Source: Alteracholeplasma palmae J233
Lineage (GTDB): Bacteria > Bacillota_I > Bacilli_A > Acholeplasmatales > Acholeplasmataceae
NCBI RefSeq assembly: GCF_000968055.1
Contig: NC_022538.1
Span: 903,499 to 967,498 of the forward strand
Length of the DNA: 64,000 bases
Direction of reading: 5' to 3'
Shown: positions 3,331-30,666 of the stretch, piece by piece
Numbering within the stretch: the first letter of the stretch is position 1
Layout of the letters: every line of letters begins with the position of its first letter
Made by a program: the position numbers and the translations under genes
Notes under the pieces: generated by a model
The model's database searches: none
Seen by the model: the letters and a program-made list of their open reading frames with translations, nothing else
Told to the model about the DNA's origin: nothing

Positions 3331-3336
3331 TATGAT
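3331..3336 (+). promoter_or_regulatory. -10 box of the leader/operon promoter
   Basis: TATGAT at 3331-3336 (continuing as TATGATAAT). The best -35 match 17 bases upstream is weak (TTTAAA at 3308-3313). A transcript starting near 3343 would carry the 15-codon leader ORF and then the terminator at 3412. Confidence 0.5.
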
Positions 3337-3364
3337 AATAGTAGGGAAAACAAGGGGAATTGAC

Positions 3365-3412
3365 ATGAACAAAAACAATAACACATTAAATATAAATAAA
3401 ATCAACATTTGA
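3365..3412 (+). CDS. Candidate 15-aa Asn-rich leader peptide
   Basis: ATG at 3365 has a strong ribosome-binding site (AAGGGG, 3352-3357, spacing 7) and the ORF ends with TGA at 3410-3412. The peptide has 15 residues of which 7 are Asn. Its stop codon touches the first base of the terminator stem at 3412-3418, so a ribosome at the end of this ORF would cover the 5' arm of the terminator. This is the geometry of a translation-coupled attenuator. The Asn content may only reflect AT-richness. Function inferred from layout only. Confidence 0.45.
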   Translation: MNKNNNTLNINKINI

Positions 3413-3438
3413 AGCAACTTTTTTTGTTGCTTTTTTTA
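3412..3438 (+). terminator. Intrinsic terminator/attenuator before the AAA+/YDG operon
   Basis: Stem AAGCAAC (3412-3418) / GTTGCTT (3426-3432) with a 7-T loop and a run of T from 3431. It lies between the operon promoter and the first operon gene, so it either ends a short leader RNA or attenuates the operon. Confidence 0.7.
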
Positions 3439-3470
3439 ATGCAAGAAATAAAAATTGAGAAAGCGTGAGT

Positions 3471-4808
3471 ATGATGAACAATAAAACAAATAAATTTAAC
3501 TGGAAAGTACTTCTTGCCATATTGGCAATTATTATATTTAATATTTTATTTTTAATGCTTTTAGGCAAAGTAAGAAGAGACAGTTATAAAATAACTATTA
3601 TTACAGTAGATGTTTTATTAACTCTTTTAGCTTTACTTATGACAAGAGGTTTATTGAAAAATAAAAAAACAAAAGAACTGAATCAAACAAAAAACAATGA
3701 GTTTATTCAGAAAGTTAAGTTACCAGAAGTCTCAGAACTTATTGTCTATGAAGAACAACAAGAAACTAAAGAAGAGTACAAAGCATATGTAGAAGACTTA
3801 GAAGTAACTAATTTAGAAATTCAAAAACCTAAACGTATAATTCAGACTAAACCAATCTATAATAAAAAAATTAATATGCTAGAATACGTTGAAGAACTAG
3901 AACAGTATTTTTTAGATCACGGGCTTCAAGTAAGTAAAAAATTAGTAAGAGAAGTACTCGCAGCTTTAACTGTTACAAAATCACTCATTTTTAAAAATGA
4001 AAATAACCAAGTTGCTAAATACTTTATTGAAGTTCTGTCCAATTTTATTGGGGCAAATGCTGATTTTATAACTCATAAAGATATTATTACTGATCTTAAC
4101 TACATTATGAATTCAGAAACAGCTTTCAGACTTTTAACATCAGCTCAACAAAGCGAAGAAAAATTACACATCCTTACAATTAGTAATATCAATGAAAAAG
4201 ATGATTTATCATACATGAAAGAATTATCACAATACATTTTAGATGCAAATGTTGATGAGTTAGTCTCAAAAGAATTGAACAATAAATATAGTCAGTTTCC
4301 TAAAAATATTTGGTTCTTATTTACAACTAACAGTAAAATCAATACTAGAAATTACCCACTATTAGGTAAATCAATCACAATCAGCTTAGACATATCACTT
4401 ACAACACCAAAAGAAGAAGTCATAGAAAATAGTATGAAACTATCATATACCATGCTTCTATCATCAATAGATAAGAATATCAGTAAATATTTATTAGAAG
4501 AATTCTACTGGAAACATTTTGATAAATTAGAAGGCGTACTAAAAGAAAATACTGATATTAGAATCAATAACTATACCCTAAACCTTATTGAAAGATATAC
4601 AGCTTATTATCAAATCTATGGCGGAGAGTTATTAGAGGCAGTAGATACTGCTATTGTTACAATTATATTACCAATGATAACCCAAGATGATTTTATTAAA
4701 TTTTCTTCTAATAAACTAAAGTTATCAGGTACATTTGAAGATATATTTGGGCTAAAAAAAATCAATCAAACAGTTGCAATACTAGATAAAATCGAACGAC
4801 AAAATTAA
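3471..4808 (+). CDS. Membrane-tethered AAA+-like protein lacking ATPase motifs
   Basis: 445 residues from ATG 3471, chosen because GAGAAAG (3457-3463) is well spaced; GTG 3465 and ATG 3474 are alternatives. Two N-terminal membrane helices (about 10-31 and 40-58) place a large C-terminal domain in the cytoplasm. That domain aligns by eye with the AAA+ domain of the two downstream ATPases: 'TVTKSLIF' matches 'SVTRIIIL', 'KNIWFLFTTNS' matches the sensor-1 stretch 'KNMWFIGTANN', and 'ITISLDIS' matches 'AMVLNLD'. The Walker A position reads KNENNQVAK (about 175-183) instead of GxxGxGKT/S, and the Walker B position reads ISNIN (about 237-241) instead of LDEMN. I infer a non-hydrolysing paralogue, perhaps a structural subunit of a mixed AAA+ ring. 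The homology call rests on visual alignment. Confidence 0.65.
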   Translation: MMNNKTNKFNWKVLLAILAIIIFNILFLMLLGKVRRDSYKITIITVDVLLTLLALLMTRGLLKNKKTKELNQTKNNEFIQKVKLPEVSELIVYEEQQETKEEYKAYVEDLEVTNLEIQKPKRIIQTKPIYNKKINMLEYVEELEQYFLDHGLQVSKKLVREVLAALTVTKSLIFKNENNQVAKYFIEVLSNFIGANADFITHKDIITDLNYIMNSETAFRLLTSAQQSEEKLHILTISNINEKDDLSYMKELSQYILDANVDELVSKELNNKYSQFPKNIWFLFTTNSKINTRNYPLLGKSITISLDISLTTPKEEVIENSMKLSYTMLLSSIDKNISKYLLEEFYWKHFDKLEGVLKENTDIRINNYTLNLIERYTAYYQIYGGELLEAVDTAIVTIILPMITQDDFIKFSSNKLKLSGTFEDIFGLKKINQTVAILDKIERQN

Positions 4809-4832
4809 AAAGAAATGGGAGATAAATAGACG

Positions 4833-6185
4833 ATGTATATATTAAATAAAATATTTTCACTACCATTTTTGATTGATTTTAATGAAATTTTAGAATCAAC
4901 TTGGAAAGTAATGACAAGCAAAATAGCAGTTTTAATTTATATAGCAGTTATTTTAATTTTTATTATTTTCAGCATTATTCTAGTTATATTAAATGAAACA
5001 AAGAAGGAAAACCTTAAAAAAGATATCACCGAAAAACAAGTGATGCTAAATTCTTCTAATAAAGAAGAAGTGCATACTAATAAATCTTCTCTTGAAACCT
5101 CAAGTGATAATAGATTTTCAATGTTATGCAAAATAGATGAAGAAATAGAAAATAGTGGCCCAATGAGTTTTGAAGATGAAACAACATTAAGCCAAATCTG
5201 TGAAGAATTTCGATTATATTCAGCTGATAAACTTAAACTCTATTATGATATAGAAGATATTAGAAGATTCATTGCAGGACTTTCTGTGACAAGAATTATT
5301 ATCCTACAAGGGATGTCTGGAACAGGTAAAACATCATTGGCCTATGCATTTGGTAAGTATCTTAAAAATGATACGACAGTTGTACCAATTCAACCTATGT
5401 GGAAAGAAAGAACTGACTTAATAGGATATTACAATGAATTTACAAGAAAGTTTAATGAAACAACTCTTCTTCAAAAAATCTATGAAGCAAACTACCTAGA
5501 CAAAATCTATATTACCGTATTAGATGAAATGAATATCGCGCGAATTGAATATTACTTCGCCGAATTCTTATCTTTATTAGAACTACCAGATTATAATAAA
5601 AGATATTTAGATGTCGTTTCAGATGAGTGGAACACTGATCCTAAACTACTTCAAAAAGGAAGAATTATCTTACCTAAAAATATGTGGTTTATAGGAACAG
5701 CTAATAACGATGACTCAACTTTTGCCATATCAGATAAAGTTTATGATAGAGCGATGGTATTAAACTTAGATAAAAAGGCAACCCCATTTAGAGTAAAAGA
5801 ATCAAATCAGAGAATGTTATCTGAAACTAAATTTGAAGAACTGATTAAAAAAGCTCAAAAAGTCTATAAGATAACAGAAAGAAACTTAAGAAGAATTAAA
5901 ACGATTGATAAATACTTAACAGATAAATATCAAATTACCTTTGGTAACCGTATTATGCAACAAATAAAAAATTACGTACCTGTAATGATTGCGTGTGGTG
6001 GAAGTGAACTAGGGGCAATCGATGATATCTTATCAAAAAAAGTTTTACGTAAACTAGAAACTAAAAATATGGTCTATGTAAAAAGTACTATTCCAGATTT
6101 AATATCATTTATAGAAGAATTATTTGGTGAAGAAGAAATGTTATTATGTAAAGAATATATTAAACAAATAGAAATTAACGCTTAA
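4833..6185 (+). CDS. Membrane-anchored AAA+ ATPase (McrB/AAA_5-like), copy 1
   Basis: 450 residues; RBS GGGAG at 4817-4821. One membrane helix (about 31-53) followed by a Lys-rich stretch puts the ATPase domain in the cytoplasm. Walker A is GMSGTGKTS (160-168), Walker B VLDEMN (229-234), sensor 1 GTANND, and VYDRA supplies a likely arginine finger. The order 'LDEMNIARIEYYF...FLSLLE' is typical of McrB/dynein-related AAA_5 ATPases. From Thr82 to the C-terminus (369 residues) it is identical to the protein at 7991-9427; only the membrane-proximal N-terminus differs. It lies 24 bases after the ATPase-dead paralogue. Substrate unknown; remodelling of envelope-locus components is inferred from the operon. 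Confidence 0.85.
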   Translation: MYILNKIFSLPFLIDFNEILESTWKVMTSKIAVLIYIAVILIFIIFSIILVILNETKKENLKKDITEKQVMLNSSNKEEVHTNKSSLETSSDNRFSMLCKIDEEIENSGPMSFEDETTLSQICEEFRLYSADKLKLYYDIEDIRRFIAGLSVTRIIILQGMSGTGKTSLAYAFGKYLKNDTTVVPIQPMWKERTDLIGYYNEFTRKFNETTLLQKIYEANYLDKIYITVLDEMNIARIEYYFAEFLSLLELPDYNKRYLDVVSDEWNTDPKLLQKGRIILPKNMWFIGTANNDDSTFAISDKVYDRAMVLNLDKKATPFRVKESNQRMLSETKFEELIKKAQKVYKITERNLRRIKTIDKYLTDKYQITFGNRIMQQIKNYVPVMIACGGSELGAIDDILSKKVLRKLETKNMVYVKSTIPDLISFIEELFGEEEMLLCKEYIKQIEINA

Positions 6186-6200
6186 ACTTATACTGAAAGG
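5074..6200 (+). repeat. 1,127-bp direct repeat, copy 1
   Basis: This segment, covering the AAA+ domain, the stop codon and 15 bases beyond, matches 8316-9442 base for base as far as I could compare. Divergence begins abruptly on both sides (5073/8315 and 6201/9443). Silent positions are also identical, so the event is very recent: gene conversion or duplication. Confidence 0.95.
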
Positions 6201-6210
6201 GGGAATCAAT

Positions 6211-7968
6211 ATGAAGAATATGAGTCTATACTATAAAGCATTTAAAGAACTCAAAAAAGTGACTGAAACACATAATGATGCTAAAAGAGCACGTAAAAAA
6301 TTAGTTGAAACACATAATGAACTAGACTCACTTATTGTTCTAAAGTATGACTGCATGATTGATTCAGACTGGATTACTGAAATTGAAAACACATTAGAAT
6401 TTATTGAAAAAGCTATTCGAGAAGATAGACAGTTCATTACATCAGAAGGTAATGTGTTGCCAATTGAAAAAGTAAAGAAGACATCAAAAGAAACTATTAA
6501 GCATTTATCGCAACATAGTGATTTAATTACCCATGTCCCAGAAAAAGAAAGTGATCCTTTAATTCCTGATAAGTTATATGTGGTAGAAAAATTAAGCGAT
6601 TACCTAGTTTATGAAAATAGATTTATTTTTATGTTACTGTCATATTTAAGAGACTTTATTGAATTAAGAATTACTAAAGTTAAAGAAAAAGTAACTACCT
6701 ATCATATGGAAGTTAAAATGAATAAACAAATCAATGATAACTATCGAAAAATGATTTATAAATTAGATTACGAAGATACTTTTAAAAATGATCCATATTT
6801 AACAGATAATTATTATAAAATACCCAATGTTAAACGTATGGAAAATGCTTATGCCCAAGTAATCTCAATGTTATCAACAGAACTTATGAAACAGGTTGCT
6901 AAAGCACCTATCATTAAACCACCTGTGGTTAAAACAAATGTGTTAAGAATGAACCAAAACTTTAAAAAATCGCTTGCATTATATGACTATATTACCTCTT
7001 ATACAAAAGATGGATATACATTAACAGAACATAAGAATGAATTTAATCCTTTTGATTTGAAAATGGCAGACAATATCGTTGAAACAATTGAATTATCTAC
7101 CTTAATTAGTTATAGTTTTGGACAAAATCTTTTGGAACAATTAGAACAGGAATATCAGATTGAACTAGAAAAATTACAACAAGAAGAAATCAAAAAATTC
7201 ACACTAGAAGTAAGTAAACTAAAAAACAAAGTAGAAAATGGTAAACTTGATCCTTTAGAGTACATTGTAAAACTAGAAAAGTTAGTAGAACTTAAAGATA
7301 AACAAATAGAAACCTTAAGTGCTGAAATAAAAGATAGTTTAAAACATCTAGATACAATCGAACAACTCAATGATAAAGTTGAAATAAATGAAAAACAAAT
7401 AGCTGCTCTAGAAAAAGTTATTGAAGAAAAAACAGATCAGTTAGTTCTTAATAGCCTAGAACATGAAACAACAATCAAGAATCTTAAAGAAGAACATCTA
7501 AATAACTTAAATACTCTAAAAAATGATTATTTAGAAGAACTTGAAAAGACTAAGATTGAACAAGATGAAACAATCAAACAAATAAAAGAAGAATTCACAG
7601 AAAAAGAAAATCATTATGAAGAAAAAGTGAAAACTTTAAATGAAACAAACGAGCAAAAAAATCAAGAAATATCTAAATATAAAGATGATCTTGAAACAAT
7701 TATCCATGAAAAAAGAGAACTTAATGCAAGATATTATGGATTAAGAGAAAAAAATGGATTGAATATCAATGAAGATTTTACCTCTAAAAAGGACTTTAAA
7801 GAACTAGAATTAGAAATGGATGCTTATAAGAAATTCTTCAAAGAACAATGGAAAAAAACAAAAATACGCATCAAAAAAGAAGTGAAAGAAGAATTAAATA
7901 CTAAGGGACAAAAAAGAAAAAATACCAAAGAGAATGAAAAAGAAGAAAATATCAATTTTGACGAATAA
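6211..7968 (+). CDS. Cytoplasmic coiled-coil protein of unknown function
   Basis: 585 residues; RBS AAGGGGG ahead of ATG 6211. No membrane segment or signal. The first ~310 residues are helical and charged with no motif I recognise; residues about 315-545 form a long Glu/Lys heptad coiled coil, and the C-terminus is strongly basic. It sits between the two identical AAA+ genes and would be lost if they recombined. A long rod partner for the AAA+ subunits is a reasonable guess from position alone. Confidence 0.7.
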   Translation: MKNMSLYYKAFKELKKVTETHNDAKRARKKLVETHNELDSLIVLKYDCMIDSDWITEIENTLEFIEKAIREDRQFITSEGNVLPIEKVKKTSKETIKHLSQHSDLITHVPEKESDPLIPDKLYVVEKLSDYLVYENRFIFMLLSYLRDFIELRITKVKEKVTTYHMEVKMNKQINDNYRKMIYKLDYEDTFKNDPYLTDNYYKIPNVKRMENAYAQVISMLSTELMKQVAKAPIIKPPVVKTNVLRMNQNFKKSLALYDYITSYTKDGYTLTEHKNEFNPFDLKMADNIVETIELSTLISYSFGQNLLEQLEQEYQIELEKLQQEEIKKFTLEVSKLKNKVENGKLDPLEYIVKLEKLVELKDKQIETLSAEIKDSLKHLDTIEQLNDKVEINEKQIAALEKVIEEKTDQLVLNSLEHETTIKNLKEEHLNNLNTLKNDYLEELEKTKIEQDETIKQIKEEFTEKENHYEEKVKTLNETNEQKNQEISKYKDDLETIIHEKRELNARYYGLREKNGLNINEDFTSKKDFKELELEMDAYKKFFKEQWKKTKIRIKKEVKEELNTKGQKRKNTKENEKEENINFDE

Positions 7969-7990
7969 TATTTTTTAAAGGAGCTATAGT

Positions 7991-9427
7991 ATGAATAAAA
8001 AATATAAACATATACTTACATTTTCATTAATTATGATTGTCATCATGAGTGTCTTGCTCATTGTTTCAATCTATAATCAAAAACAATTTATTGATGAAAA
8101 TGAAACAGCTTCTAATGCGAAAATTATTTATATTTTAGTAACAGCATTTCTTTTAGCTTCTTCCATTTTTTCTATTTTAATTATTCTCATTAAAAATCAT
8201 AAAAAAACAACTAAAAAAGCTATGAGAATGAGTCATAAAACTAAAAAAGTGGGCCCGATTAAAAATGAATTGATTGCTAAATATCAAAAAGAAGATAAAA
8301 ATATAGTCAAAGAAGATACTAATAAATCTTCTCTTGAAACCTCAAGTGATAATAGATTTTCAATGTTATGCAAAATAGATGAAGAAATAGAAAATAGTGG
8401 CCCAATGAGTTTTGAAGATGAAACAACATTAAGCCAAATCTGTGAAGAATTTCGATTATATTCAGCTGATAAACTTAAACTCTATTATGATATAGAAGAT
8501 ATTAGAAGATTCATTGCAGGACTTTCTGTGACAAGAATTATTATCCTACAAGGGATGTCTGGAACAGGTAAAACATCATTGGCCTATGCATTTGGTAAGT
8601 ATCTTAAAAATGATACGACAGTTGTACCAATTCAACCTATGTGGAAAGAAAGAACTGACTTAATAGGATATTACAATGAATTTACAAGAAAGTTTAATGA
8701 AACAACTCTTCTTCAAAAAATCTATGAAGCAAACTACCTAGACAAAATCTATATTACCGTATTAGATGAAATGAATATCGCGCGAATTGAATATTACTTC
8801 GCCGAATTCTTATCTTTATTAGAACTACCAGATTATAATAAAAGATATTTAGATGTCGTTTCAGATGAGTGGAACACTGATCCTAAACTACTTCAAAAAG
8901 GAAGAATTATCTTACCTAAAAATATGTGGTTTATAGGAACAGCTAATAACGATGACTCAACTTTTGCCATATCAGATAAAGTTTATGATAGAGCGATGGT
9001 ATTAAACTTAGATAAAAAGGCAACCCCATTTAGAGTAAAAGAATCAAATCAGAGAATGTTATCTGAAACTAAATTTGAAGAACTGATTAAAAAAGCTCAA
9101 AAAGTCTATAAGATAACAGAAAGAAACTTAAGAAGAATTAAAACGATTGATAAATACTTAACAGATAAATATCAAATTACCTTTGGTAACCGTATTATGC
9201 AACAAATAAAAAATTACGTACCTGTAATGATTGCGTGTGGTGGAAGTGAACTAGGGGCAATCGATGATATCTTATCAAAAAAAGTTTTACGTAAACTAGA
9301 AACTAAAAATATGGTCTATGTAAAAAGTACTATTCCAGATTTAATATCATTTATAGAAGAATTATTTGGTGAAGAAGAAATGTTATTATGTAAAGAATAT
9401 ATTAAACAAATAGAAATTAACGCTTAA
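7991..9427 (+). CDS. Membrane-anchored AAA+ ATPase (McrB/AAA_5-like), copy 2
   Basis: 478 residues; RBS AAAGGAG ahead of ATG 7991. The N-terminus has two membrane helices (about 8-28 and 45-66) where copy 1 has one, followed by a basic linker. From Thr110 on it is identical to copy 1, with Walker A Lys194 and Walker B Asp259/Glu260. Two ATPases with the same motor domain but different membrane anchors suggest either two complexes or two positions within one complex. Gene conversion keeping the motor domains identical is the simplest explanation. Confidence 0.85.
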   Translation: MNKKYKHILTFSLIMIVIMSVLLIVSIYNQKQFIDENETASNAKIIYILVTAFLLASSIFSILIILIKNHKKTTKKAMRMSHKTKKVGPIKNELIAKYQKEDKNIVKEDTNKSSLETSSDNRFSMLCKIDEEIENSGPMSFEDETTLSQICEEFRLYSADKLKLYYDIEDIRRFIAGLSVTRIIILQGMSGTGKTSLAYAFGKYLKNDTTVVPIQPMWKERTDLIGYYNEFTRKFNETTLLQKIYEANYLDKIYITVLDEMNIARIEYYFAEFLSLLELPDYNKRYLDVVSDEWNTDPKLLQKGRIILPKNMWFIGTANNDDSTFAISDKVYDRAMVLNLDKKATPFRVKESNQRMLSETKFEELIKKAQKVYKITERNLRRIKTIDKYLTDKYQITFGNRIMQQIKNYVPVMIACGGSELGAIDDILSKKVLRKLETKNMVYVKSTIPDLISFIEELFGEEEMLLCKEYIKQIEINA

Positions 9428-9442
9428 ACTTATACTGAAAGG
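8316..9442 (+). repeat. 1,127-bp direct repeat, copy 2
   Basis: Exact partner of 5074-6200 in the same orientation, offset 3,242 bases. Homologous recombination between the copies would delete the coiled-coil gene and leave a single chimeric ATPase with the copy-1 anchor. Confidence 0.95.
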
Positions 9443-9452
9443 AGTTTATCAT

Positions 9453-11990
9453 ATGCATAGAAAAAAATTAATCTTTAGTGGTATTATACTCATTACTACC
9501 TTAATGGGAGTCTTAATGTATGTTTTATTTACTACATTTGGCATTATTAATGGCGAATCTACTAAAAAACAATTAACAATTAAAACTGAATCTGCTCAAA
9601 AAATATATGATGGAACCCCTTTAACTAGTGAGTTATTTACATTGTTTGAAGGCGAATTGGGAAAAGAAGAAAGAATTGAACCTAAAGAGTATACAAAAAT
9701 AACAAATGTTGGTAAAGCTGATAATATCATTCAATTTGTTATCTTGAATAAAAATAATTCGGATGTCACTAAAAAATATGAGATAAATTATTTATTCGGA
9801 AAATTAGAAGTTATCCCTAAAACTATCTATATTGAAACAAAAGAAGAAAGTAAGATATATGATGGAGAAGAACTTACTTCAGATGAATATATTTTAGATG
9901 AAAAAGCATTAATTAAAGGTGATGCAGTTAAAGTTATCGGGACAACAAAAATAACTGATGTAGGAACTAAACTTAATGAAATTGTCACAACAATTTTAAA
10001 TCATCAAAATATAGATGTTACTAAAAACTACGATATAAAGTATAAAAATAATAATCTAACAATAAAGAAGATACCTATAACAATCGCATCAAGGGGTAAA
10101 TCTAAAGTTTATGACGGAGAAGAACTTACTGGAAGTGATGACGATATTATTCCAATTCAAGGACTTTTAGAAGGACATCAAGTAGAAAATCAATTTACAG
10201 GTACTATAACAGAACCTGGTAGTGCAGAAAATCAATTTGTTACAACTATAAAAGATAACAATGGTAAAGATGTGACTGCGCAATATGATATTAAATATGG
10301 ATTTGGAAATTTAACAGTACTTACAAGTATTTATTCAGATGGAAAAATAGAAAATAAAAATGTAGAAGAATATGAAAATACAATTGTTGCAAGCATCGAG
10401 ACAGACCATAATGGATCAACTTATTTAAGATATAAATCATTTGGAGATTTTTTTGAAGGCAGTTGGCAAGACAATAATATTCAAACAGACAGTATAAGCC
10501 CACTTTTATTTACAAGTTTATCAATTGAAAAAAATTCAAAGGCAATCAAAAGACAAACAATGAACCTTGTTTATGAAAAAGATCAAGTGCCATTTTTAGC
10601 ACCATACTATATTAGCTCACAAATTAAAGATGAGCTTAATATAACGAATGACAGTTATATCAAAAATACTAAGTTGGACTCTTATAAATTTGTATTTACA
10701 GCTTATAATACACTAGTTAATGGTGCTTCTAATATTATTGAAGAATATAGTGCTGAAGAAGCCCAATATTATGAAAATATTAAAGCATATTATTTAAGTA
10801 TTCCTGAAGAAATTAAACCAATATTAGACAAACTTATACAAAATATAAAAATAACTCCAACTGAACTAGGTGATAAAAAAGAACTTGTATCAGTTGTGAA
10901 AAAAGTGTCTAAATACTTCAAAGAAAATTTTAATCAGTCAAATAAGTCTGATTATGCAAAAAGTACTTTGAAAGAAGTATTTGAAACTAATGAAGGCAGT
11001 GCAGATCAGCTTGCTACATTAGCAACTTTACTGTTAAGAAGACTAGATATACCTGCTAGATACACAACAGGTTATTACACAGATATACGAAATAACCTAG
11101 GTAGTTTACATGAAGAAAATGCTCATTCATGGGTTGAATTTTATATTCAAAATATGGGTTGGATTCCATTAGAAGTGACACCAGGAATAGCAGATAAAAT
11201 TGAAATTACTGTTACTCCAAATAAAGTTACAAAACAATGGGATGGTAATGATTTAGAGTTTGATCCTAAAAATATTAGAGTTACTAACTTTCAAGAGTAT
11301 AAAAATCTTGGATATACCTATGAAGCAATAATTAATAAAATGAAGAAACCAGAAACTGGTAAATATAAATATTCTGTGAATGATTTTAAAATTTATGATG
11401 AAAATAATAATGATGTAACAGAGTTATTTGAAATTATTTATAAAGAAGCCGATCTACAAATATATAAAGAAAAACTAATAATTGAAACAGAAAGTATATA
11501 TTCTGACTATGATGGTAGTACAGAATGGAGAAATGATGAGCGAGGACAAATTAAAGTAATTGGTGAAGAACTTCTTACTGACTATGATGTAAAAGTTAGC
11601 TTTTCTAGTTTAAGTAAAACTGTGTTTCAAAAAAATAACAGCGCTATTCTTAAGATTTATGATAAAAATAATAATGATGTAACTGACCACTATTTGATCA
11701 CTGAAAATTTTGGTAAAGCAGTTATGCGTCGAAAACCTATTACAGTTAGATCTAAGTCTAAAACTGTTAAACATGAGCCTGAAACAGGACAAATTTTAGA
11801 ATATAAAGAATTAGAAGAAATAATAGGACTTGTAGAAGGTGATGAAATAAAAGAAGTAATCTTTACTGGTCAACAAGTAGACTTAGGAAGTAGTCCAAAT
11901 ACATTTAGTATAGTTATTTATAGAGGAAACTTAGATGTTACTCAATATTATGAAATAATGTATATACCTGGAGAATTAGAAATAAGATAG
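9453..11990 (+). CDS. Membrane-anchored YDG/MBG protein with a Cys-less transglutaminase domain
   Basis: 845 residues; RBS AAAGGAG. An N-terminal signal anchor (about 6-28) should leave the rest outside the cell. Three YDG/MBG-type repeats follow (IYDGTPLTS, IYDGEELTS, VYDGEELTG, each about 80 residues), then a transglutaminase-like core (about 480-580), then three weaker repeats. The core keeps 'LLLRRLDIPARYTTGY', His558 in 'AHSWVEFY' and 'GWIPLEVTPG', but the usual catalytic Cys is Ala517 (EGSADQLA where families have GxCxxxA), and the usual Asp is Glu574. Established transglutaminase-fold chemistry needs the Cys, so I infer a non-catalytic binding domain. MoxR/AAA+ genes next to transglutaminase-domain genes are a known pairing, which this operon resembles. 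No LPXTG motif or C-terminal membrane helix. Confidence 0.8.
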   Translation: MHRKKLIFSGIILITTLMGVLMYVLFTTFGIINGESTKKQLTIKTESAQKIYDGTPLTSELFTLFEGELGKEERIEPKEYTKITNVGKADNIIQFVILNKNNSDVTKKYEINYLFGKLEVIPKTIYIETKEESKIYDGEELTSDEYILDEKALIKGDAVKVIGTTKITDVGTKLNEIVTTILNHQNIDVTKNYDIKYKNNNLTIKKIPITIASRGKSKVYDGEELTGSDDDIIPIQGLLEGHQVENQFTGTITEPGSAENQFVTTIKDNNGKDVTAQYDIKYGFGNLTVLTSIYSDGKIENKNVEEYENTIVASIETDHNGSTYLRYKSFGDFFEGSWQDNNIQTDSISPLLFTSLSIEKNSKAIKRQTMNLVYEKDQVPFLAPYYISSQIKDELNITNDSYIKNTKLDSYKFVFTAYNTLVNGASNIIEEYSAEEAQYYENIKAYYLSIPEEIKPILDKLIQNIKITPTELGDKKELVSVVKKVSKYFKENFNQSNKSDYAKSTLKEVFETNEGSADQLATLATLLLRRLDIPARYTTGYYTDIRNNLGSLHEENAHSWVEFYIQNMGWIPLEVTPGIADKIEITVTPNKVTKQWDGNDLEFDPKNIRVTNFQEYKNLGYTYEAIINKMKKPETGKYKYSVNDFKIYDENNNDVTELFEIIYKEADLQIYKEKLIIETESIYSDYDGSTEWRNDERGQIKVIGEELLTDYDVKVSFSSLSKTVFQKNNSAILKIYDKNNNDVTDHYLITENFGKAVMRRKPITVRSKSKTVKHEPETGQILEYKELEEIIGLVEGDEIKEVIFTGQQVDLGSSPNTFSIVIYRGNLDVTQYYEIMYIPGELEIR

Positions 11991-12026
11991 GAAGGAGAAA
12001 CAGTCAGAGACTGTAAATAAATTATG
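11991..12026 (+). promoter_or_regulatory. Distant Shine-Dalgarno with hairpin in the spacer
   Basis: The only Shine-Dalgarno (AGGAG, 11993-11997) lies 26 bases before ATG 12024, and a stop codon (TAA 12018-12020) rules out an earlier in-frame start. A perfect hairpin ACAGTC-AGA-GACTGT (12000-12014) fills the gap; folding it brings the effective spacing to about 11 bases. Confidence 0.5.
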
Positions 12027-15000
12027 TTATACGATAAATATGAAACACGAGTTAGAAAAAATATCTTAATTCAAAAAATAATTATTAAACATAAAATACC
12101 TATTTTAATTACATTAGCTGTTCTGATAATCCTTTTTGTAATTTATTCGTTCACAAAAGGAAATATTTCTAATGTGAAATATGAAGCAAGTATTCAATAT
12201 GGAGAAAATTTTGAGATAAATTCCCAAGCACTGATGTCAAATGTTAGTTATGAATATAAAAAAATAGGTGATGATACATGGACAACGCAAGTACCTAAAA
12301 TAGCTGGCGAATATGAAGTAAAAATAACTAGTAAAAAAGTCTTTGGTATTAAAAATTCCAAAACATACGCATTCACAATTATCCCTAGAGAACTAGATAT
12401 AGAAATAAAAGAAGATACAATTCTTTTTGGAACTAAATTATCAACTAGGCAAGCACTCATCAATGGCGATCGTATTGCAAGTATTAAGTATACTTATGGA
12501 GATATTACACAAAAAGAAACAAGTGTAATCGGAAAAGAAGCTGTTATTATCGATAATAACGGTGATGATATAACAAGTTCATATCAAATAAACTATATTG
12601 AAAAAAATATAAAATTTACTACATCTACTTTAGGGTTGAAACTGAAAGATAAAAAAATAATTTATGACGGAAAAGAACTTACATCAAAAGAATATGATTT
12701 AATAGGAAATCTTTCTGATGAATTTACTATTAAGTATGAAACGATGGGATCACAAACTAATGTAGGAACTAGCGAAAATAAAATTAGTTCATTTAGTATC
12801 TATTATGGTGATATTGATGTTACACATCAAATTAATCCTAATCATACTGCAGGGAAACTTGAAGTTACAAAAAGAGATATAACAGTTAAACCAAAGGATG
12901 TTACTAAGGAGTATGATGGACTTTCTCTTACAAGCAACGATGCTGAAACTACTAATTTAGTAAAAGAGCATAAGGCTTCTATAACTACTAATGGATCAAT
13001 TACAGATGCTAACTATAGCCAAAATACAATAAAATCATTAGAAATTACTGATAAGAATGGTAATGATGTAACAACCAACTACAATATTAAAACGCTACCA
13101 GGAACCCTAACTATTAAAAAAAGAAATATTGAAATTAAAACAAGCGATTTAAATGATATAGAATACGATAGAAACTATTATTCTAATAATCAGTATGAAA
13201 TTGTTGGTAGTTTGGCACCTAATCAAAAAGAAAATATAAATTTTATTGTATCTGTTACTAATGCAGGTACTCACAATAATGTTATGAGTTTTAAAATCAA
13301 AGATATAAATCAAAACGATGTAACATCAAACTATGATATCAGTTATATATATGGGAAAATAACAATTAGTCCTAGAAAATTAGTTATAAAAACTAATGAC
13401 TATATTTCTACATATAATGGGGGCTCACACTATGATAAAGAAATAAATATTGTTGAAGGAACACTTGCTTATCAACAAAATATAAGACTTAATAGTTTTA
13501 CTAGCATTATAAATGTAGGAACAAAAATAAATAAGTTTACTGTGGATGTTATTGATGAAAATTTAAATATAAATACGAAGAACTATGACATAAAATTCAT
13601 TGAAGGAACAATTACAGTTAACCCTCTTGAAATTACTGTAACTTCAGAAAATTTAGAAGGAATTTATGATAGTTATGTACATTCTAATTTAAAGTATAAA
13701 ATTGATAATGAAATTGTAAAAGGTCATATGGCTGAAATAGTGGACTTTACTACAATTAAAAATGTGGGACAAACTTTAAATAAAATTGAAATTAGGATTT
13801 ATAATCAAAATGAAGATGTGACGCCAAACTATAAGATAAACTACAATTTTGGTACACTAAAAATTAATAAAAGAGATATTACAATTAAACCCAAAGATAT
13901 AAAACGCACCTATGATGGCACAATATTGACATCTAAGACAGTAGAATATATCAAGGGCTATCTTGGTTATAATGATTTAATAAGTATTGACACAAAAGGA
14001 AGCATCATTGATGTTGGTAAGATTGATAACGAAATAAGAGCTATCTCTATTATAGATACTACTAATGGTACAGAAGTAAACAATAATTATAATATTTTAA
14101 ATGAACTAGGAACTTTAACAATTACCCAACAACCTATAACAGTTAAACCACTTGATATAAGCAAAGTTTATGACGGAAAAGAGCTTACAAGTGCTCTTCC
14201 TGAAGTAGTTGGAACTGGTCTTGCTGAAGGTGATTTTATTGAAATTATAACAAATGGACAAATTACTGATGCTGGTACTAGTAATAATGAAATAATCGGG
14301 ACACCCAAAATTATTTCAAGAAGTAGAAACTTAGATGTTTCTAATAATTATGAAATTACAAATCAAATAGGTGAACTAAGAATTACACAAAAATCAATTA
14401 CAATCAAACCAAAAGATGAAACAAAAATTTACGATGGTAAGGAATTAATAAGCATTGTAGCACTTGATTTTAATAAAGATCTCATAGATACTGAAAATAT
14501 TTTTATTAAAACAGATGGTAAGCCTATAAATGTTTTGGATAACAAGATAAATACAATTACAAGTGTTAAAATTGAAAAGGCTGATGGAACTGATTCAACA
14601 GGTAATTATAATATTACAAAACAAACAGGACTCTTAACGATTAGCCCAAGACCAATAACAATTACTACAGGTAGTGCGACTAAAGAATATGATGGTACTC
14701 CATTATCAATAGATTATAATTATCTTTCAAGTGGAGCAATTATAGAATCAGAAGAATTAGAGGTAATTATAAATGTAACTATTACAGATGCTATTAGTGT
14801 AAGTAATTCTATAAATAGTATTTCAATAACTAAGCTTGACGGTACTTCTTCAAGAGATAACTATAAGATTACAGAACAACTTGGAACTTTAACAATTACT
14901 CCAAGAGCTATTACAATCAAACCAAAAGATGAAACAAAAGTATATGACGGTAAGGAATTAATAAGCAATACACCAGAATATGATAATGATAGACTTGTAT

Positions 15001-18000
15001 CTGGAGAGACGATTATCCTTACAACAAAAGGTAAGCCTGTAAATGTTGTAGAAAATCATGAAAATGAAATTGATAAAATAGCTATTCTAAACTCAAATGG
15101 TACGTCTTCAATAAACAATTATACAATTACCAAACAAAAAGGGTTCTTAACAATTACTCCAAGACCAATTACTATCAGACCAAAAGAAGAAACAAAAGTA
15201 TATGATGGTAAGGAATTAGTAAGCAATACGCCAGAATATGATAATGATAGACTTATATTTGGAGAACATCTTATTATCACAACAGATAATAAACTCATCG
15301 ATGTTGGTTCGATTACTGAAAATAATATTGTGACTGCTAACATTTATAAGTCTAGTGGCGAGGATTCAACAAACAACTATAATATTACAAGAAAAACAGG
15401 CTCCTTAACAATTACTCCAAGAGATATTACAATCAAACCAAAAGATGAAATAAAAATTTATGATGGGCAACCATTTGTAAGTAACAAGGCTGTAGATGTT
15501 AATGGTGAACTTGTATTTGGAGAAACAATTATTCTTAAAACAAAAGGTAAACCTGTAGATGTTGTAGAAAATTACGAAAATGAAATTGATGAAGTAACTA
15601 TTACAAAATCAGATGGCACTCAATCAACAAACAATTATACAATTACCAAACAAATAGGGTCCTTAACAATCACTAAAAGACCAATCACAATCAAACCAAA
15701 AGATGAATCAAAAGCATATGATGGTAAGGAATTAGTAAGTAATGATCCTGTAGATGTTAATAGTGAACTTGTATTTGGAGAACGCATTGTTATTACAACA
15801 GATAAGAAAATCATCGATGTTGGTTCAACTAACCAAAATAATATTGTAACCACTGATATTTATAAAGCAAATGAGGGTACTTCAACGAATAACTATCATA
15901 TTACAATTTTGCCTGGAACACTAACTATCACAAAAAAACAAGTCACAATTATAACTTTGGGATTAGAACTAGCATATGATGGTAATATACATTCTAATAA
16001 AGAATATACTACTGAAGGATTAATACATGAACATGAAACAAGTTTAGATCCAGATAAATCTATCCCAACGATTAAAAATGTAGGTCGATTTGATAATGAT
16101 CTGACGGTTATTATTAAAGATTCTAAAGAAAATGATGTCTCTGACAATTATGATATCATTTATGTATACGGAAAATTGGTTATTACCAGACGTGAAATAA
16201 CAGTTATAACTGGTTCTAAAACTGCGATCTATGACGGAACTGAACATTATAATGAGAAAATAGAAATTGATAAAGGGAGCCTAGTTTCTGGACAAAAGTA
16301 TAATGTTACAAGCTATACTAAACAAATTAATGCAACGGATTCAACTGGCATTTCTAATAAGGTAACAGTTGAAATTATTGGACAAAATGAGACTGATGAT
16401 TACACTAATAACTATATGATTAACTTTATAGAAGGCAGAATCATTGTTAATAAGAAACCCATAACTGTAAAAACAAGCAGCCATTCAATCGAATTTGATG
16501 GGAAATATCACAGAGGAGACTATGAAATTGTGGGAGAGTTGTCTTCTGAATATGAAAGTCAGATCAATAGCTATGTTAGTGGTTATGGTGTTGATAAGCA
16601 TGTAAACAAAATAAAAATTTGGATTTACAAAGATCGTTTAGATGTTACTGATAACTTTGATATTACATACTTATATGGAATAATTGAAATTACAAAACGC
16701 CAAATAACAATAATAAGTGGTTCTAAAATAAAAGAATATGATGGAACTGAAATTAATTCATTTGATACAAAAACGACTTCTGAAAACTTAGTAGTTAATC
16801 ATAGAATAGAAATAACTAAGTCTACAAGAATTACTAATGTTGGAGAAACTACTAATACAATTGAAATTAGTATCATTGATGATTCATTAAGTGAACTAAC
16901 CGGGAAGACAGGAAATGTGACATATTGTTATGATATTTCATATGAAAATATTGGCAAATTAGAAATAACAAAGAGAAGTATTAATATTAAACCAGAAGAT
17001 AGCTATAAAGAATATGATGGTCAACCGTTAATAGCTTCCAAGGCTCAAGTTATTAGTGATAAGCTATTAGCTCTTGGTGATGAAATTACTGCTATTATTA
17101 CAAGTGGATCACAAACTGATATAGGAAAAAGTACTACTAAGATAATAAGTTATACAATAAAAAATAAAAATGGAAATGATGTAACTAAAAACTATAATGT
17201 AGAGGCTAATACAGAAGGAACATTAACAGTTAATAAACGAGAAATAGCAATCAAGATAAAAGATGAACAAAAAGTTTATGATGGTAAATCTTTAGTATTT
17301 AAAGAGACACAGGACTTAAATAAAAAACTACTTGAAGGTCATAAAATAGTACATCAGTTTGATACTAGTGATATTATTAAAAACGCTGGAACATTAAGCA
17401 GTGATAAAGGAACTTTTGAAATCTATGATGGTAATAAAAAGGTATCATATCTATACAATATAAGTATTATAGAAGGTCAGTTACAAATTGACCCACTAAA
17501 AATCAATGTTCAAGCTGCTTCAAAAACAACTGTTTATAATGGAACAAATTATATATATGAAACAACTAGTTACTACATTAACCCTGAATCATTTATTGAT
17601 AACCACAGTCATAAATTGAAATTTGGGGCAGTTTTAGAAGGAACTGGAATAAAACAACTAGAATTTGTTAAAGAAGGCTCTAAAATTGTCAACAGTCTCA
17701 ATGAAGATATGTCTATGAACTATACTTTTAACATTAAAGGTGAACTAAAAATAACAAAAGCTACCTTAATAATAACTGCTGCATCTGAAGAAAAGGAGTA
17801 TGATGAAAAAGAATTAACAAATAATTCGTACACCACTTCTGGCCTTTTAGGAGGTCATGAAGTAACAGTTGAAATAATAGGTAATATTACAGATGTTGGA
17901 AGAGAAGTTAATAAAGTAGGTACCGTAGTAGTTAAAGATGGCAATTTAGATGTAACAGCATATTACGAGATTACAAGAATTGATGGTATGCTAAGAATTA

Positions 18001-18017
18001 CTGATTCAATAGAATAG
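12024..18017 (+). CDS. Giant membrane-anchored YDG/MBG repeat surface protein
   Basis: 1,997 residues. A cytoplasmic basic N-terminus is followed by one membrane helix (about 29-48); the rest should be extracellular. It is built of about 22 YDG/MBG-type modules of 75-90 residues, each opening with 'ITIKPKD..K.YDGKEL'-like sequence and closing with 'NYNIT...GTLTITPR'-like sequence; 21 show a recognisable YDG/YNG/FDG motif. Modules 8-13 (about 14399-15900) are close to identical at DNA level. Such repeats form strings of beta-sandwich domains in bacterial adhesins and stalk proteins. There is no LPXTG, no C-terminal membrane helix and no enzymatic domain. Likely a long fibre held by its N-terminal anchor; ligand unknown. 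Start fixed by the upstream stop codon. Confidence 0.85.
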   Translation: MLYDKYETRVRKNILIQKIIIKHKIPILITLAVLIILFVIYSFTKGNISNVKYEASIQYGENFEINSQALMSNVSYEYKKIGDDTWTTQVPKIAGEYEVKITSKKVFGIKNSKTYAFTIIPRELDIEIKEDTILFGTKLSTRQALINGDRIASIKYTYGDITQKETSVIGKEAVIIDNNGDDITSSYQINYIEKNIKFTTSTLGLKLKDKKIIYDGKELTSKEYDLIGNLSDEFTIKYETMGSQTNVGTSENKISSFSIYYGDIDVTHQINPNHTAGKLEVTKRDITVKPKDVTKEYDGLSLTSNDAETTNLVKEHKASITTNGSITDANYSQNTIKSLEITDKNGNDVTTNYNIKTLPGTLTIKKRNIEIKTSDLNDIEYDRNYYSNNQYEIVGSLAPNQKENINFIVSVTNAGTHNNVMSFKIKDINQNDVTSNYDISYIYGKITISPRKLVIKTNDYISTYNGGSHYDKEINIVEGTLAYQQNIRLNSFTSIINVGTKINKFTVDVIDENLNINTKNYDIKFIEGTITVNPLEITVTSENLEGIYDSYVHSNLKYKIDNEIVKGHMAEIVDFTTIKNVGQTLNKIEIRIYNQNEDVTPNYKINYNFGTLKINKRDITIKPKDIKRTYDGTILTSKTVEYIKGYLGYNDLISIDTKGSIIDVGKIDNEIRAISIIDTTNGTEVNNNYNILNELGTLTITQQPITVKPLDISKVYDGKELTSALPEVVGTGLAEGDFIEIITNGQITDAGTSNNEIIGTPKIISRSRNLDVSNNYEITNQIGELRITQKSITIKPKDETKIYDGKELISIVALDFNKDLIDTENIFIKTDGKPINVLDNKINTITSVKIEKADGTDSTGNYNITKQTGLLTISPRPITITTGSATKEYDGTPLSIDYNYLSSGAIIESEELEVIINVTITDAISVSNSINSISITKLDGTSSRDNYKITEQLGTLTITPRAITIKPKDETKVYDGKELISNTPEYDNDRLVSGETIILTTKGKPVNVVENHENEIDKIAILNSNGTSSINNYTITKQKGFLTITPRPITIRPKEETKVYDGKELVSNTPEYDNDRLIFGEHLIITTDNKLIDVGSITENNIVTANIYKSSGEDSTNNYNITRKTGSLTITPRDITIKPKDEIKIYDGQPFVSNKAVDVNGELVFGETIILKTKGKPVDVVENYENEIDEVTITKSDGTQSTNNYTITKQIGSLTITKRPITIKPKDESKAYDGKELVSNDPVDVNSELVFGERIVITTDKKIIDVGSTNQNNIVTTDIYKANEGTSTNNYHITILPGTLTITKKQVTIITLGLELAYDGNIHSNKEYTTEGLIHEHETSLDPDKSIPTIKNVGRFDNDLTVIIKDSKENDVSDNYDIIYVYGKLVITRREITVITGSKTAIYDGTEHYNEKIEIDKGSLVSGQKYNVTSYTKQINATDSTGISNKVTVEIIGQNETDDYTNNYMINFIEGRIIVNKKPITVKTSSHSIEFDGKYHRGDYEIVGELSSEYESQINSYVSGYGVDKHVNKIKIWIYKDRLDVTDNFDITYLYGIIEITKRQITIISGSKIKEYDGTEINSFDTKTTSENLVVNHRIEITKSTRITNVGETTNTIEISIIDDSLSELTGKTGNVTYCYDISYENIGKLEITKRSINIKPEDSYKEYDGQPLIASKAQVISDKLLALGDEITAIITSGSQTDIGKSTTKIISYTIKNKNGNDVTKNYNVEANTEGTLTVNKREIAIKIKDEQKVYDGKSLVFKETQDLNKKLLEGHKIVHQFDTSDIIKNAGTLSSDKGTFEIYDGNKKVSYLYNISIIEGQLQIDPLKINVQAASKTTVYNGTNYIYETTSYYINPESFIDNHSHKLKFGAVLEGTGIKQLEFVKEGSKIVNSLNEDMSMNYTFNIKGELKITKATLIITAASEEKEYDEKELTNNSYTTSGLLGGHEVTVEIIGNITDVGREVNKVGTVVVKDGNLDVTAYYEITRIDGMLRITDSIE
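14399..15920 (+). repeat. Tandem near-identical YDG-module DNA repeats
   Basis: Six consecutive modules of about 250 bp repeat with high DNA identity; for example ACAATCAAACCAAAAGATGA recurs near 14400, 14917, 15430 and 15683, followed by closely matching 'gatggtaaggaatta' stretches. Slippage or recombination here would change protein length in whole domains while keeping frame. Confidence 0.8.
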
Positions 18018-18031
18018 GGAGGCTTTTAAAA

Positions 18032-18910
18032 ATGAATAAAAGCATGTTTCAATTAATAAAATATGGAATGAAAGAAACAAGAAAAGCATTTAAAACTAAT
18101 AGGGCATCATTTTATAGTTATCTTACATATGTACTATCGATGATTATAAGTATGGCTAGCGTATTTTTATATCCACTATTTGCCTTATCAGAAGTAAAAA
18201 TAGTAAAAATGATGGAAGAAGATAATCAATTTTCAGTTGAATCTTCTTTCTCAAATACAGATAAACCTAATAAGTATTGGACTGCCTTAGGTTATTTTGC
18301 TGTAAAATTACTAAGATCAATAGTAACAACTGGTATCTTCGTTGGCCTAATTTTCTTATTTAAAGAACTTGGTTTTCAAATAGATATATTACTAGAATTT
18401 GAAAAAGAATATGTTACTTTTATCTTTACTTTAATAACAGCTATTGTAGGGCTTATTGTCTTAGTAAGACAAAATTTGCTCATGGCACCCATTTTTTATA
18501 TTATCGCAACAGAAAATACAAGTATGTCACAAGCGTATTCTAAAGGGATAGAAGTAATGAAAAAAAGAGGTAAAACTAAACTTTTACTCATTCAAATCAT
18601 TAGTTTAATTAGAGCAGCATTCTATATAGGATTTTTTGTAGGATTTCTAATGATTGGAAAAGAATACCTAGAAACTGAATTGCTTGTCTCATTAACAGTG
18701 ATTTTTATCCTGATGCTAATCTTTATCTTACCTAAAATTTGGTTAGCCTATAAAGTTTCTAGTATCACTCATTTTAAACAACTAGTAGATGATTATAATA
18801 ATGAAAATATTGAGATTACAGAAGAAACATATATTGAAAGACAAGTGAAAGAATCAAGAGAAAAATTAGACATATTGTTTAGAGCTGATGAACCTGATTC
18901 TAACTTATAG
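18032..18910 (+). CDS. Polytopic membrane protein, unknown function
   Basis: 292 residues; RBS GGGAGG ahead of ATG 18032. About five to six hydrophobic helices (roughly 28-50, 85-108, 125-145, 150-165, 188-210, 215-238) with a charged C-terminal tail of about 50 residues. Family not recognised. It follows the giant repeat protein by 14 bases; a channel or platform for the surface proteins is a guess from context. Confidence 0.7.
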   Translation: MNKSMFQLIKYGMKETRKAFKTNRASFYSYLTYVLSMIISMASVFLYPLFALSEVKIVKMMEEDNQFSVESSFSNTDKPNKYWTALGYFAVKLLRSIVTTGIFVGLIFLFKELGFQIDILLEFEKEYVTFIFTLITAIVGLIVLVRQNLLMAPIFYIIATENTSMSQAYSKGIEVMKKRGKTKLLLIQIISLIRAAFYIGFFVGFLMIGKEYLETELLVSLTVIFILMLIFILPKIWLAYKVSSITHFKQLVDDYNNENIEITEETYIERQVKESREKLDILFRADEPDSNL

Positions 18911-18915
18911 GTGAA

Positions 18916-19611
18916 ATGATGGAACTAAATATAATTGCCTACATAAGTCTAGGTATTGGGATTCTTTCAATGATCTTTGCAATTATACTAAGAATCTTAT
19001 ATAAAAAGAAATATGAATTAAAAAGAAATATGAATGACTTTTTTGAAGACTATAAACTATCTGAAAGTTATATAGGTGATGTGAAGTATAATTTATTTAA
19101 ACCACAATCACTATCTATGGAACTTATGAGCCATTATGCTATTGCATACGAAGAGACACAAACATATTTAATTTGTAAGTTTTCTAAAGAAATCCCCAAT
19201 GTTACATTAAAAGTTTATGCCTACACTACATATAAACAACTCATCGATATCATATTTGTAGAACAAACAGGAAAGTTTGATCACACATCAAAAATAACCT
19301 TGCCACAAGAAACTGCCTATGTTAACATTGAAGTTTTAGAAACTAACGAAAATAAGGTTCCTGATATAATTGAGCATAAGTACTTCATTAATAAAGTGAT
19401 TGCTAAATTAGCAACCGTTTCTTTATTTCATTTATTAATTGGGATATCGTACCTTACGATGTATTTGATAGATGATGATATGATAGATAGTTTTCTTACA
19501 ACTGAAAATAATTCTATCTTACTTTCAGTGCTGATAGTTGTTTGTCTTATTAACTATCTACTTGTTAATAAAACATTAAAAAAAAGAGCTAAAGTAGGTA
19601 TGAAAAAATGA
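18916..19611 (+). CDS. Small membrane protein, unknown function
   Basis: 231 residues; RBS AGGTGA just before tandem ATGs at 18916 and 18919. Membrane helices at about 4-27, 165-185 and 195-215 flank a soluble domain of about 130 residues rich in beta-type sequence. Its segment 'ATVSLFHLLIGISYLT' resembles 'HQVSMFHKNKNISFYIT' in the next protein, suggesting a distant pair. Ends in an ATGA overlap with the next gene. Confidence 0.65.
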   Translation: MMELNIIAYISLGIGILSMIFAIILRILYKKKYELKRNMNDFFEDYKLSESYIGDVKYNLFKPQSLSMELMSHYAIAYEETQTYLICKFSKEIPNVTLKVYAYTTYKQLIDIIFVEQTGKFDHTSKITLPQETAYVNIEVLETNENKVPDIIEHKYFINKVIAKLATVSLFHLLIGISYLTMYLIDDDMIDSFLTTENNSILLSVLIVVCLINYLLVNKTLKKRAKVGMKK

Positions 19612-20090
19612 ATAATCTTAATTTGATATCTAAAAAAACATATGTTATTAAAGAAGAATCTAACCTTGAATTACTAGAACATATTATTTGTATGGATCAA
19701 GATAAATTACAATATACCTTTTTAAAACTTAAAAATAATATTAATAAAAAAATATCTCATCTTAAATTAGAAATAACCTTCTATGATGCTCCAAATAACC
19801 CTGTTCAAAAGGCTTTATACACATTTAATGATATTAGCCATATTAAGAATTACATACTCTTAAATGAGGGAATAGGAGTTCATAGAAAGTATGAAACGAT
19901 ATCTATTCAAGTGATGTCCTATGATAGTGAAGTATTTGAAACTCAAAATGAAATAGATCTAACAAAAGAATCTTTACATCAAGTAAGTATGTTTCATAAA
20001 AATAAGAATATTAGTTTTTACATTACATTAATGTTCTTTATACTATTTTTAGCAGGAATTATTATTAGTTATTTTCTTTTTATTGCATAA
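19608..20090 (+). CDS. Tail-anchored small protein, last gene of the operon
   Basis: 160 residues. The start overlaps the preceding stop by four bases (ATGA), implying translational coupling. A soluble domain of about 130 residues is followed by one C-terminal membrane helix (about 137-158), so the domain is probably cytoplasmic. Family not recognised. Confidence 0.65.
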   Translation: MNNLNLISKKTYVIKEESNLELLEHIICMDQDKLQYTFLKLKNNINKKISHLKLEITFYDAPNNPVQKALYTFNDISHIKNYILLNEGIGVHRKYETISIQVMSYDSEVFETQNEIDLTKESLHQVSMFHKNKNISFYITLMFFILFLAGIIISYFLFIA

Positions 20091-20095
20091 AGAAT

Positions 20096-20143
20096 AAAAA
20101 CCTCAACAAGAATCCTTATATGGAAAACTGTTGAGGTTTTTTT
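20096..20143 (+). terminator. Terminator ending the AAA+/YDG operon
   Basis: AAAAACCTCAACA (20096-20108) pairs perfectly with TGTTGAGGTTTTT (20129-20141), followed by more T. A stable rho-independent terminator just after the last operon gene. Confidence 0.9.
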
Positions 20144-20237: not shown

Positions 20238-20252
20238 GGTATAATTATAGTA
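20237..20252 (+). promoter_or_regulatory. Extended -10 promoter giving a leaderless transposase transcript
   Basis: TGGTATAAT (20237-20245) is an extended -10 box ending six bases before the transposase ATG (20252), so transcription should start at or next to the start codon. There is no Shine-Dalgarno; the upstream region is the terminator. Confidence 0.6.
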
Positions 20253-27789: not shown

Positions 27790-28130
27790 GGGGATGTCCT
27801 GGATTCGCCATGGTTAGGAACTTTATATGTGCATGTCTTGGTTACGCAAGTAAAAACGTTGAGGTTTTTAATAACCGGAAATCAAAGATTACAATTCGCT
27901 GCTTAAGAAAAAGCATGCGCCGACCTTAAATTTTCTTACGATTTAAGTAAGGCCAATTTAGTAAGATATATAAACTATAGTGCCTTGGATAGTTTATGAA
28001 TATAAAAGGCTGGTATAAACATTTTTTGTTCATTTAAAGTGTTTGTATGAGATTAAGAAATGAACTAAACATGTAGACCATATAAACAGAATAATCGTGT
28101 ACAGGGGTTCGATTCCCCTCATCTCCACCA
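27790..28130 (+). ncRNA. ssrA: tmRNA
   Basis: The 5' end GGGGATG (27790-27796) pairs with CATCTCC just before the encoded CCA (28128-28130) to form the acceptor stem; the T arm GGGGTTCGATTCCCC is at 28104-28118. The interior has a tag reading frame ending ...LQFAA with TAA at 27904-27906. GGTTA (27840-27844) can pair with TAACC (27872-27876) as part of a pseudoknot. tmRNA with SmpB rescues stalled ribosomes. I could not fix the resume codon. Confidence 0.93.
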
Positions 28131-30654: not shown

Positions 30655-30666
30655 AGGAGAACTAAT

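Follow-up and report, generated by a model that had tools for sequence, protein, structure and literature searches.

An McrB/McrC-type gene cassette with predicted surface-fiber proteins in Alteracholeplasma palmae

Relation to described McrBC systems

The McrBC relatives called CoCoPALM were named by Bell et al. 2024, who linked them to signal peptidases and to the assembly of pili and deferred the details (PMC11090510). They are defined by an NxD McrB-type nucleoside triphosphatase (NTPase) and an McrC homolog (DUF2357) bearing a coiled coil, and their NTPase is fused to an FtsB-like transmembrane (TM)/coiled-coil domain (PMC11090510). Here, we analyze a nine-gene cassette that resembles this theme and lies in a 64,000-nucleotide stretch of the Alteracholeplasma palmae J233 genome (the window; positions 903499-967498 of a 1.55-Mb single-contig genome). 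Its genes, which we call A0, A1, CC, A2, TG, FIB, M1, M2, and M3, are tightly packed open reading frames (ORFs) spanning window positions 3465-20090, all intact and co-directional, with gaps of -4 to 33 bp. We consider it moderately probable, as a class of explanation, that a membrane-bound McrB/McrC NTPase ring encoded by this cassette organizes TM-anchored MBG fibers and an adhesin. The original prediction for this DNA had described nine closely spaced genes for one ATPase-dead and two active membrane-tethered AAA+ proteins, a long coiled coil, two N-anchored YDG/MBG proteins, and three small membrane proteins, and all of these parts are found. It had also held that no described system with this set is known; the literature searched contained no published description of the nine genes together, but the parent theme CoCoPALM had already been named (PMC11090510).

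Like CoCoPALM, the cassette appears to combine an NxD McrB-type NTPase (A1 and A2) with a DUF2357 partner carrying a coiled coil (CC), and it shares membrane-anchored NTPases, here with TM anchors, and an association with surface fibers. Unlike CoCoPALM, it has no signal peptidase, no protein of that family having been found among the nine genes or in W1, the gene upstream; it also has two McrB-type genes plus a pseudo-McrB, MBG fibers with or without a transglutaminase domain, and M1-M3. Because the signal peptidase is lacking, we do not file the cassette as a CoCoPALM member; it likely works like CoCoPALM, as a signal-peptidase-less variant of that theme. Escherichia coli McrBC shares the McrB-type AAA+ domain and the McrC N-terminal domain family, but the cassette has an NxD rather than an NxxD motif, has membrane anchors, and yielded neither a DNA-binding nor an endonuclease domain. 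CoCoPALM has so far been given a name but no explanation, and a simple variant without a signal peptidase, present in cultured species such as Anaeroplasma bactoclasticum, makes function directly testable. In this cassette, a pair of restriction-type NTPases would have become an envelope machine whose parts are all listed and whose gene order is kept in bacteria with and without a cell wall.

The McrB/McrC-type core and its concerted evolution

A1 and A2 both have an intact Walker A (GMSGTGKT), Walker B (LDEMN), and sensor motif. Their best PDB profile matches are all McrB (6hz4, 6ut6, and 7vsr), nothing but McrB chains is matched at E<=0.01, and the A1/A2 profile matches 6hz4, E. coli McrBC, at E 4.8e-5. 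The sensor motif TANNDD, which A1 and A2 carry in almost every locus, is an NxD form with a second D behind it, an arrangement described for the CoCoNuT/CoCoPALM branch (PMC11090510). On these motifs and profile matches, we assign A1 and A2 to the McrB-type NTPases of the NxD branch. The original prediction had spoken of MoxR-type AAA+ proteins, which the McrB matches and the NxD motif do not bear out; no MoxR family appeared among the Pfam or NCBIfam hits, and none of the cassette proteins received a name from NCBIfam. A0 has neither Walker A (P-loop) nor Walker B. Across the whole core, however, the A0 family aligns with the A1/A2 family at hhalign probability 99.9 (E 2.7e-32), and the window's A0 matches the AAA core hidden Markov model (HMM) at E 2.6e-15, so that A0 reads as a degenerate McrB-like pseudo-NTPase homologous to A1 and A2.

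CC, predicted from its sequence to be an McrC homolog with a long coiled coil instead of the nuclease, lies between A1 and A2. In 13 genomes, among them the Haloplasma-type genome G122, the CC ortholog in the corresponding position scores above Pfam's threshold for DUF2357 (best score 32.7 bits against a cut-off of 23.3), and both CC paralogs elsewhere in the A. palmae genome also exceed it; DUF2357 matches were found in 9 of the 27 CC members. The window's own CC falls below the cut-off and is 26-41% identical to the other members. An AlphaFold2 (AF2) model of CC has a folded N-terminal half followed by a 167-residue helix (348-514), and no nuclease domain was matched in CC, the C-terminal half being coiled coil with no PD-(D/E)xK. 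The long coiled coil of the original prediction is thus present, at about 170 residues, and its reading is amended to that of an McrC homolog.

A contig scan of genomes with A1 as the query returned 60 loci, and these were parsed together with fetched genome stretches. The A-CC-A pattern occurs in about 30 of the loci so assembled, and nearly all sufficiently long ones have one gene packed in ahead of the pattern and two large ones behind it. The order A0-A1-CC-A2-TG-FIB recurs in about 30 loci, more than expected by chance; the original prediction had proposed a search for this gene order, and these genes do co-occur in relatives. An A0-family gene occupies the A0 position in 26 of 30 loci. 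Hosts are Acholeplasmatales, Anaeroplasma, Haloplasma, Clostridia, and Oscillospiraceae, with many of the loci coming from gut metagenome-assembled genomes. Of 395 genomes in the class, 108 have weaker relatives of CC (E<=1e-20). In another Acholeplasmataceae genome (L115, G022:C193), A0 and CC are intact and the A1 region has several stops (7 TGA), reflecting either a decaying copy or a sequence problem.

Such ancestry raises the question of antiphage defense. An McrBC/CoCoNuT-like system could sense infection at the membrane with the surface proteins as its receptors or effectors, and McrB plus McrC ancestry, a patchy distribution, an adjoining transposase, and a match of the AAA+ cores to the PADLOC candidate family PDC-M26A at 1.1e-41 all fit that idea. 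The cassette shares the NxD McrB branch, a McrC-like DUF2357 protein, and long coiled coils with CoCoNuT type IV restriction systems. It differs from them in its membrane and extracellular parts, and Pfam, NCBIfam, and PADLOC scans found no nuclease, HEPN, methylase, or toxin domain in the cassette, nor was an RNA-binding domain found. CoCoNuT membership fails because there is no nuclease, and CoCoNuTs without the McrC nuclease reportedly always have HEPN or another nuclease encoded alongside (PMC11090510). Restriction of DNA or RNA also sits poorly with large MBG proteins that are predicted to be extracellular, and we regard a defense role as unlikely.

A1 and A2 share an exactly identical stretch of DNA (1127/1127 positions by blastn; Table 1). 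Within loci, the 355-residue A1 and A2 cores are 98.9-100% identical in 22 of 27 cases, against roughly 65-75% between distant loci, and in a maximum-likelihood tree A1 pairs with A2 of the same locus, with L060/L064 and L050 as exceptions. The N-terminal anchors remain distinct: A1 usually has one TM helix and A2 two, and leave-one-out HMMs sorted 58 of 59 N-termini correctly by position. In close locus pairs, A1 and A2 have accumulated equal differences (27 and 27; 45 and 45 residues) with identity kept within each locus. With within-locus core identity far above that between distant loci and with the anchors distinct, this pattern is one of repeated gene conversion that has homogenized the cores of A1 and A2 and spared their anchors. 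Such conversion predicts mixed rings, with matching cores and differing anchors. We do not claim selection for amino-acid identity beyond gene conversion; A1 and A2 differ within some loci by 35/2, 53/0, and 39/0 synonymous/amino-acid changes, and close loci compared with each other look similar (87/5 and 92/3).

Surface proteins and the proposed envelope complex

TG and FIB share a layout of a short N-terminal segment, one TM helix, and a long YDG/MBG region with a motif spacing of about 85 residues, and MBG_2 matches in FIB agree with this assignment. Flanking charges predict an N-in/C-out topology for both, placing the FIB tail in the cytosol. That tail (the first 26 residues, Y..Y...+I.K.A..K) has an HMM that picks out FIB in about 38 loci without matching any other ORF; its mean pairwise identity is only modestly higher than that of the rest of the protein (35% vs 27%). 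Internal tandem DNA repeats in FIB, 75-81% identical at 14343-15906, are a sign of recent domain duplication.

The Cys-less transglutaminase domain named in the original prediction is confirmed in TG, where no Cys occurs in the entire protein and GSADQLA stands at the catalytic position; as a feature of the family it does not hold, since the catalytic Cys is retained by 17 of the 21 related domains and missing from four, the window's among them. By this alignment, the loss of the Cys is local and lineage specific. About half of the loci encode the domain. AAA_5 ATPase genes beside transglutaminase-domain genes are a known pairing, and MoxR/DUF58/transglutaminase clusters resemble the cassette in having an AAA_5-class NTPase next to transglutaminase-domain proteins. 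This pairing and the Cys kept in most related domains could suggest that the AAA+ ring is a MoxR-like chaperone for the maturation of the transglutaminase/MBG proteins, acting ahead of their export or in its course, and that the fibers are then passive. We find this distinctly unlikely: the ATPases are similar to McrB and are paired with an McrC-type protein, the cassette has neither a MoxR match nor DUF58, and many loci have no transglutaminase domain at all. Moreover, the window's domain is Cys-less and its genome has no other Transglut_core match, and therefore cross-linking by this family would not be needed in this species.

M1, M2, and M3 follow FIB, in the same order, in eight relatives (L089, L090, L091, L094, L095, L097, L100, and L101); their HMMs were built from these syntenic relatives alone, and the E-values come from single-sequence searches. 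In relatives, M3 has a BspA-type leucine-rich repeat (LRR) region past its TM helix (LRR_5 E 2.8e-24 and 5.6e-7). The window's M3 ends at the TM helix, without the LRR region. A surface-fiber role is supported by synteny, by predicted topology, and by this LRR region in relatives. That support extends to the surface fiber of the original prediction; assembly or movement of the fiber by internal AAA+ motors remains an inference.

The same genome has two more McrB-McrC pairs, separate from the cassette (L074, G000:C1 571000-590900; L075, 748000-767900), with NTPases 41-45% identical to those of the cassette. L074 and L086, a locus in a relative, adjoin signal-peptidase-like genes (sub-threshold S24/S26 matches) and secreted proteins with a TasA-like signal ("VFAWF"), several of them in L074, and a GGDEF or GGDEF-EAL gene lies near each of L074, L075, and L086. 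All three resemble the CoCoPALM type, and L074 and L075 are perhaps under cyclic di-GMP control. TasA/SipW loci likewise devote dedicated genes to a surface fiber, and the paralogous loci share SipW-like peptidases and VFAWF-type signals with them; the cassette differs in its N-terminal TM anchors, its MBG repeats, and its lack of a peptidase. An envelope or fiber reading of the cassette is favored because these paralogous pairs adjoin signal-peptidase-like and VFAWF proteins and because the literature links McrBC relatives of this kind to pilus assembly (PMC11090510).

We propose that an McrBC machine lost its nuclease, was relocated to the membrane, and became an envelope complex. A1 and A2, perhaps with A0, would form a mixed ring at the cytosolic face of the membrane, into which the McrC-like CC would dock and stimulate nucleoside triphosphate (NTP) hydrolysis, as McrC does for McrB; the CC coiled coil may space, cluster, or link rings. 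The ring could then act on the cytosolic parts of FIB, M2, and M3 and so assemble, position, or tension the fibers and an attachment adhesin. Through gene conversion, the cores of A1 and A2 would remain exchangeable, each NTPase keeping its own anchor. Force generation is the less certain part of this model. Its strongest form, in which a membrane-embedded, McrBC-derived, NTP-driven machine with two gene-converted, differently anchored NTPases and a pseudo-NTPase mechanically positions or pulls giant fibers by their cytosolic tails, would be a new class of surface-fiber or attachment machinery, and we put it forward only tentatively, as a doubtful possibility.

Several observations weigh against the ring model. 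It draws on sequence and predicted topology. In Foldseek/VIA-align searches with AF2 models of full-length CC and of its N-terminal 312 residues, McrC was not among the listed matches; the searches were dominated by the coiled coil, and predicted local distance difference test (pLDDT) values stayed under 50 in the DUF2357 core. Because fold searches with so low-confidence a core listed no McrC, the McrC assignment relies on sequence. Identical cores are not an absolute requirement, as five of the 27 loci retain a divergent A1 and A2. M1-M3 are not essential to the core, since they are absent from the Haloplasma-type genome G122, which has A0 through FIB. The cassette is also rare, strong CC matches (E<=1e-60) being present in 11 of 392 sampled genomes of the phylum.

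The McrB/McrC-like proteins might instead be a membrane-linked scaffold or cytoskeletal element for shape, polarity, or division, its site merely marked or anchored by the surface proteins. The long coiled coil of CC and the TM anchors of the NTPases would suit such a scaffold, and there is a precedent in PcdA of Staphylococcus aureus, an McrB-family protein that moved from restriction to a cell-biological role and was co-opted for division-plane selection (PMC10602043). PcdA, however, acts with FtsZ, whereas the cassette is a multigene envelope set with an McrC partner. Almost every locus has large MBG genes alongside the core, no division or MreB-type gene is associated with it in this way, and absence of the cassette from most relatives argues against a core cell-cycle factor. 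A scaffold role thus seems improbable to us, and we retain the fiber-organizing ring.

Feature coordinates and neighboring genes

Table 1. Features of the cassette and its flanks, in window positions
Feature	Description	Position	Strand	Basis
W1	3' part of 1629-aa ORF (1680 bp before window); N-terminal TM region, long helical repeats	1..3210	+	
Hairpin	Terminator-like, between W1 and A0	3411..3433	+	Sequence
A0	Putative degenerate McrB-like AAA+ pseudo-NTPase; two N-terminal TM helices (by eye)	3465..4808	+	Profile alignment, no P-loop
A1	Putative McrB-type AAA+ NTPase (NxD motif TANNDD); single N-terminal TM anchor	4833..6185	+	AAA_5 E 3.1e-7
A1 core	Homogenized AAA core, 1,127 bp identical to 8316-9442	5074..6200	+	blastn
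CC	Putative McrC-type protein (DUF2357 N-terminal half); ~170-residue coiled coil in nuclease's place	6211..7968	+	Orthologs, AF2
A2	Putative McrB-type AAA+ NTPase, core same as A1; two N-terminal TM helices	7991..9427	+	Motifs, identity, anchors
A2 core	Homogenized AAA core, 1,127 bp identical to 5074-6200	8316..9442	+	blastn
TG	Predicted N-in/C-out; YDG/MBG-like repeats; Cys-less transglutaminase domain (residues 474-574)	9453..11990	+	Transglut_core E 1.5e-18
FIB	1997 aa; predicted N-in/C-out surface fiber; ~20 MBG/YDG repeats; conserved cytosolic N-terminal tail	12024..18017	+	MBG_2 hits
M1	~5-TM membrane protein	18032..18910	+	Syntenic-relative HMM 8e-38
M2	3-TM protein; central domain predicted cytosolic	18916..19611	+	HMM 3e-13, alignment
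M3	N-terminal predicted cytosolic domain and one TM	19608..20090	+	HMM 7e-12
Hairpin	Terminator-like perfect 13-bp hairpin with T-run, after M3	20096..20141	+	Inverted repeat and sequence

W1 is, with moderate confidence, a probable accessory component. Clostridia and Acholeplasmatales loci L094, L095, and L097 have a membrane protein of about 1500 aa with helical repeats after M3, and a W1-related gene stands 3' of M3 in L094 and L097 as well as in L095. In L095, the protein encoded immediately after M3 has 1524 aa, and W1 matches it by blastp at 3e-27 with composition correction off; hhalign gives this pair a probability of only 48. A promoter scan counted fewer sites than in shuffled sequences and is uninformative.

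A DDE transposase gene (20252-21748) lies directly past the cassette terminator. Truncation of M3 by this gene is not claimed, as the terminator lies between the two and no remnant was seen.

Farther downstream, a 1801-aa ORF at 44184-49589 has no Pfam match. The sole match in an Rfam scan of the window is a transfer-messenger RNA (tmRNA) gene at 27790-28130, beside which a fused type I methylase/specificity protein and a GmrSD-type restriction protein are encoded at 28285-31809, a possible defense island at a tmRNA insertion site.

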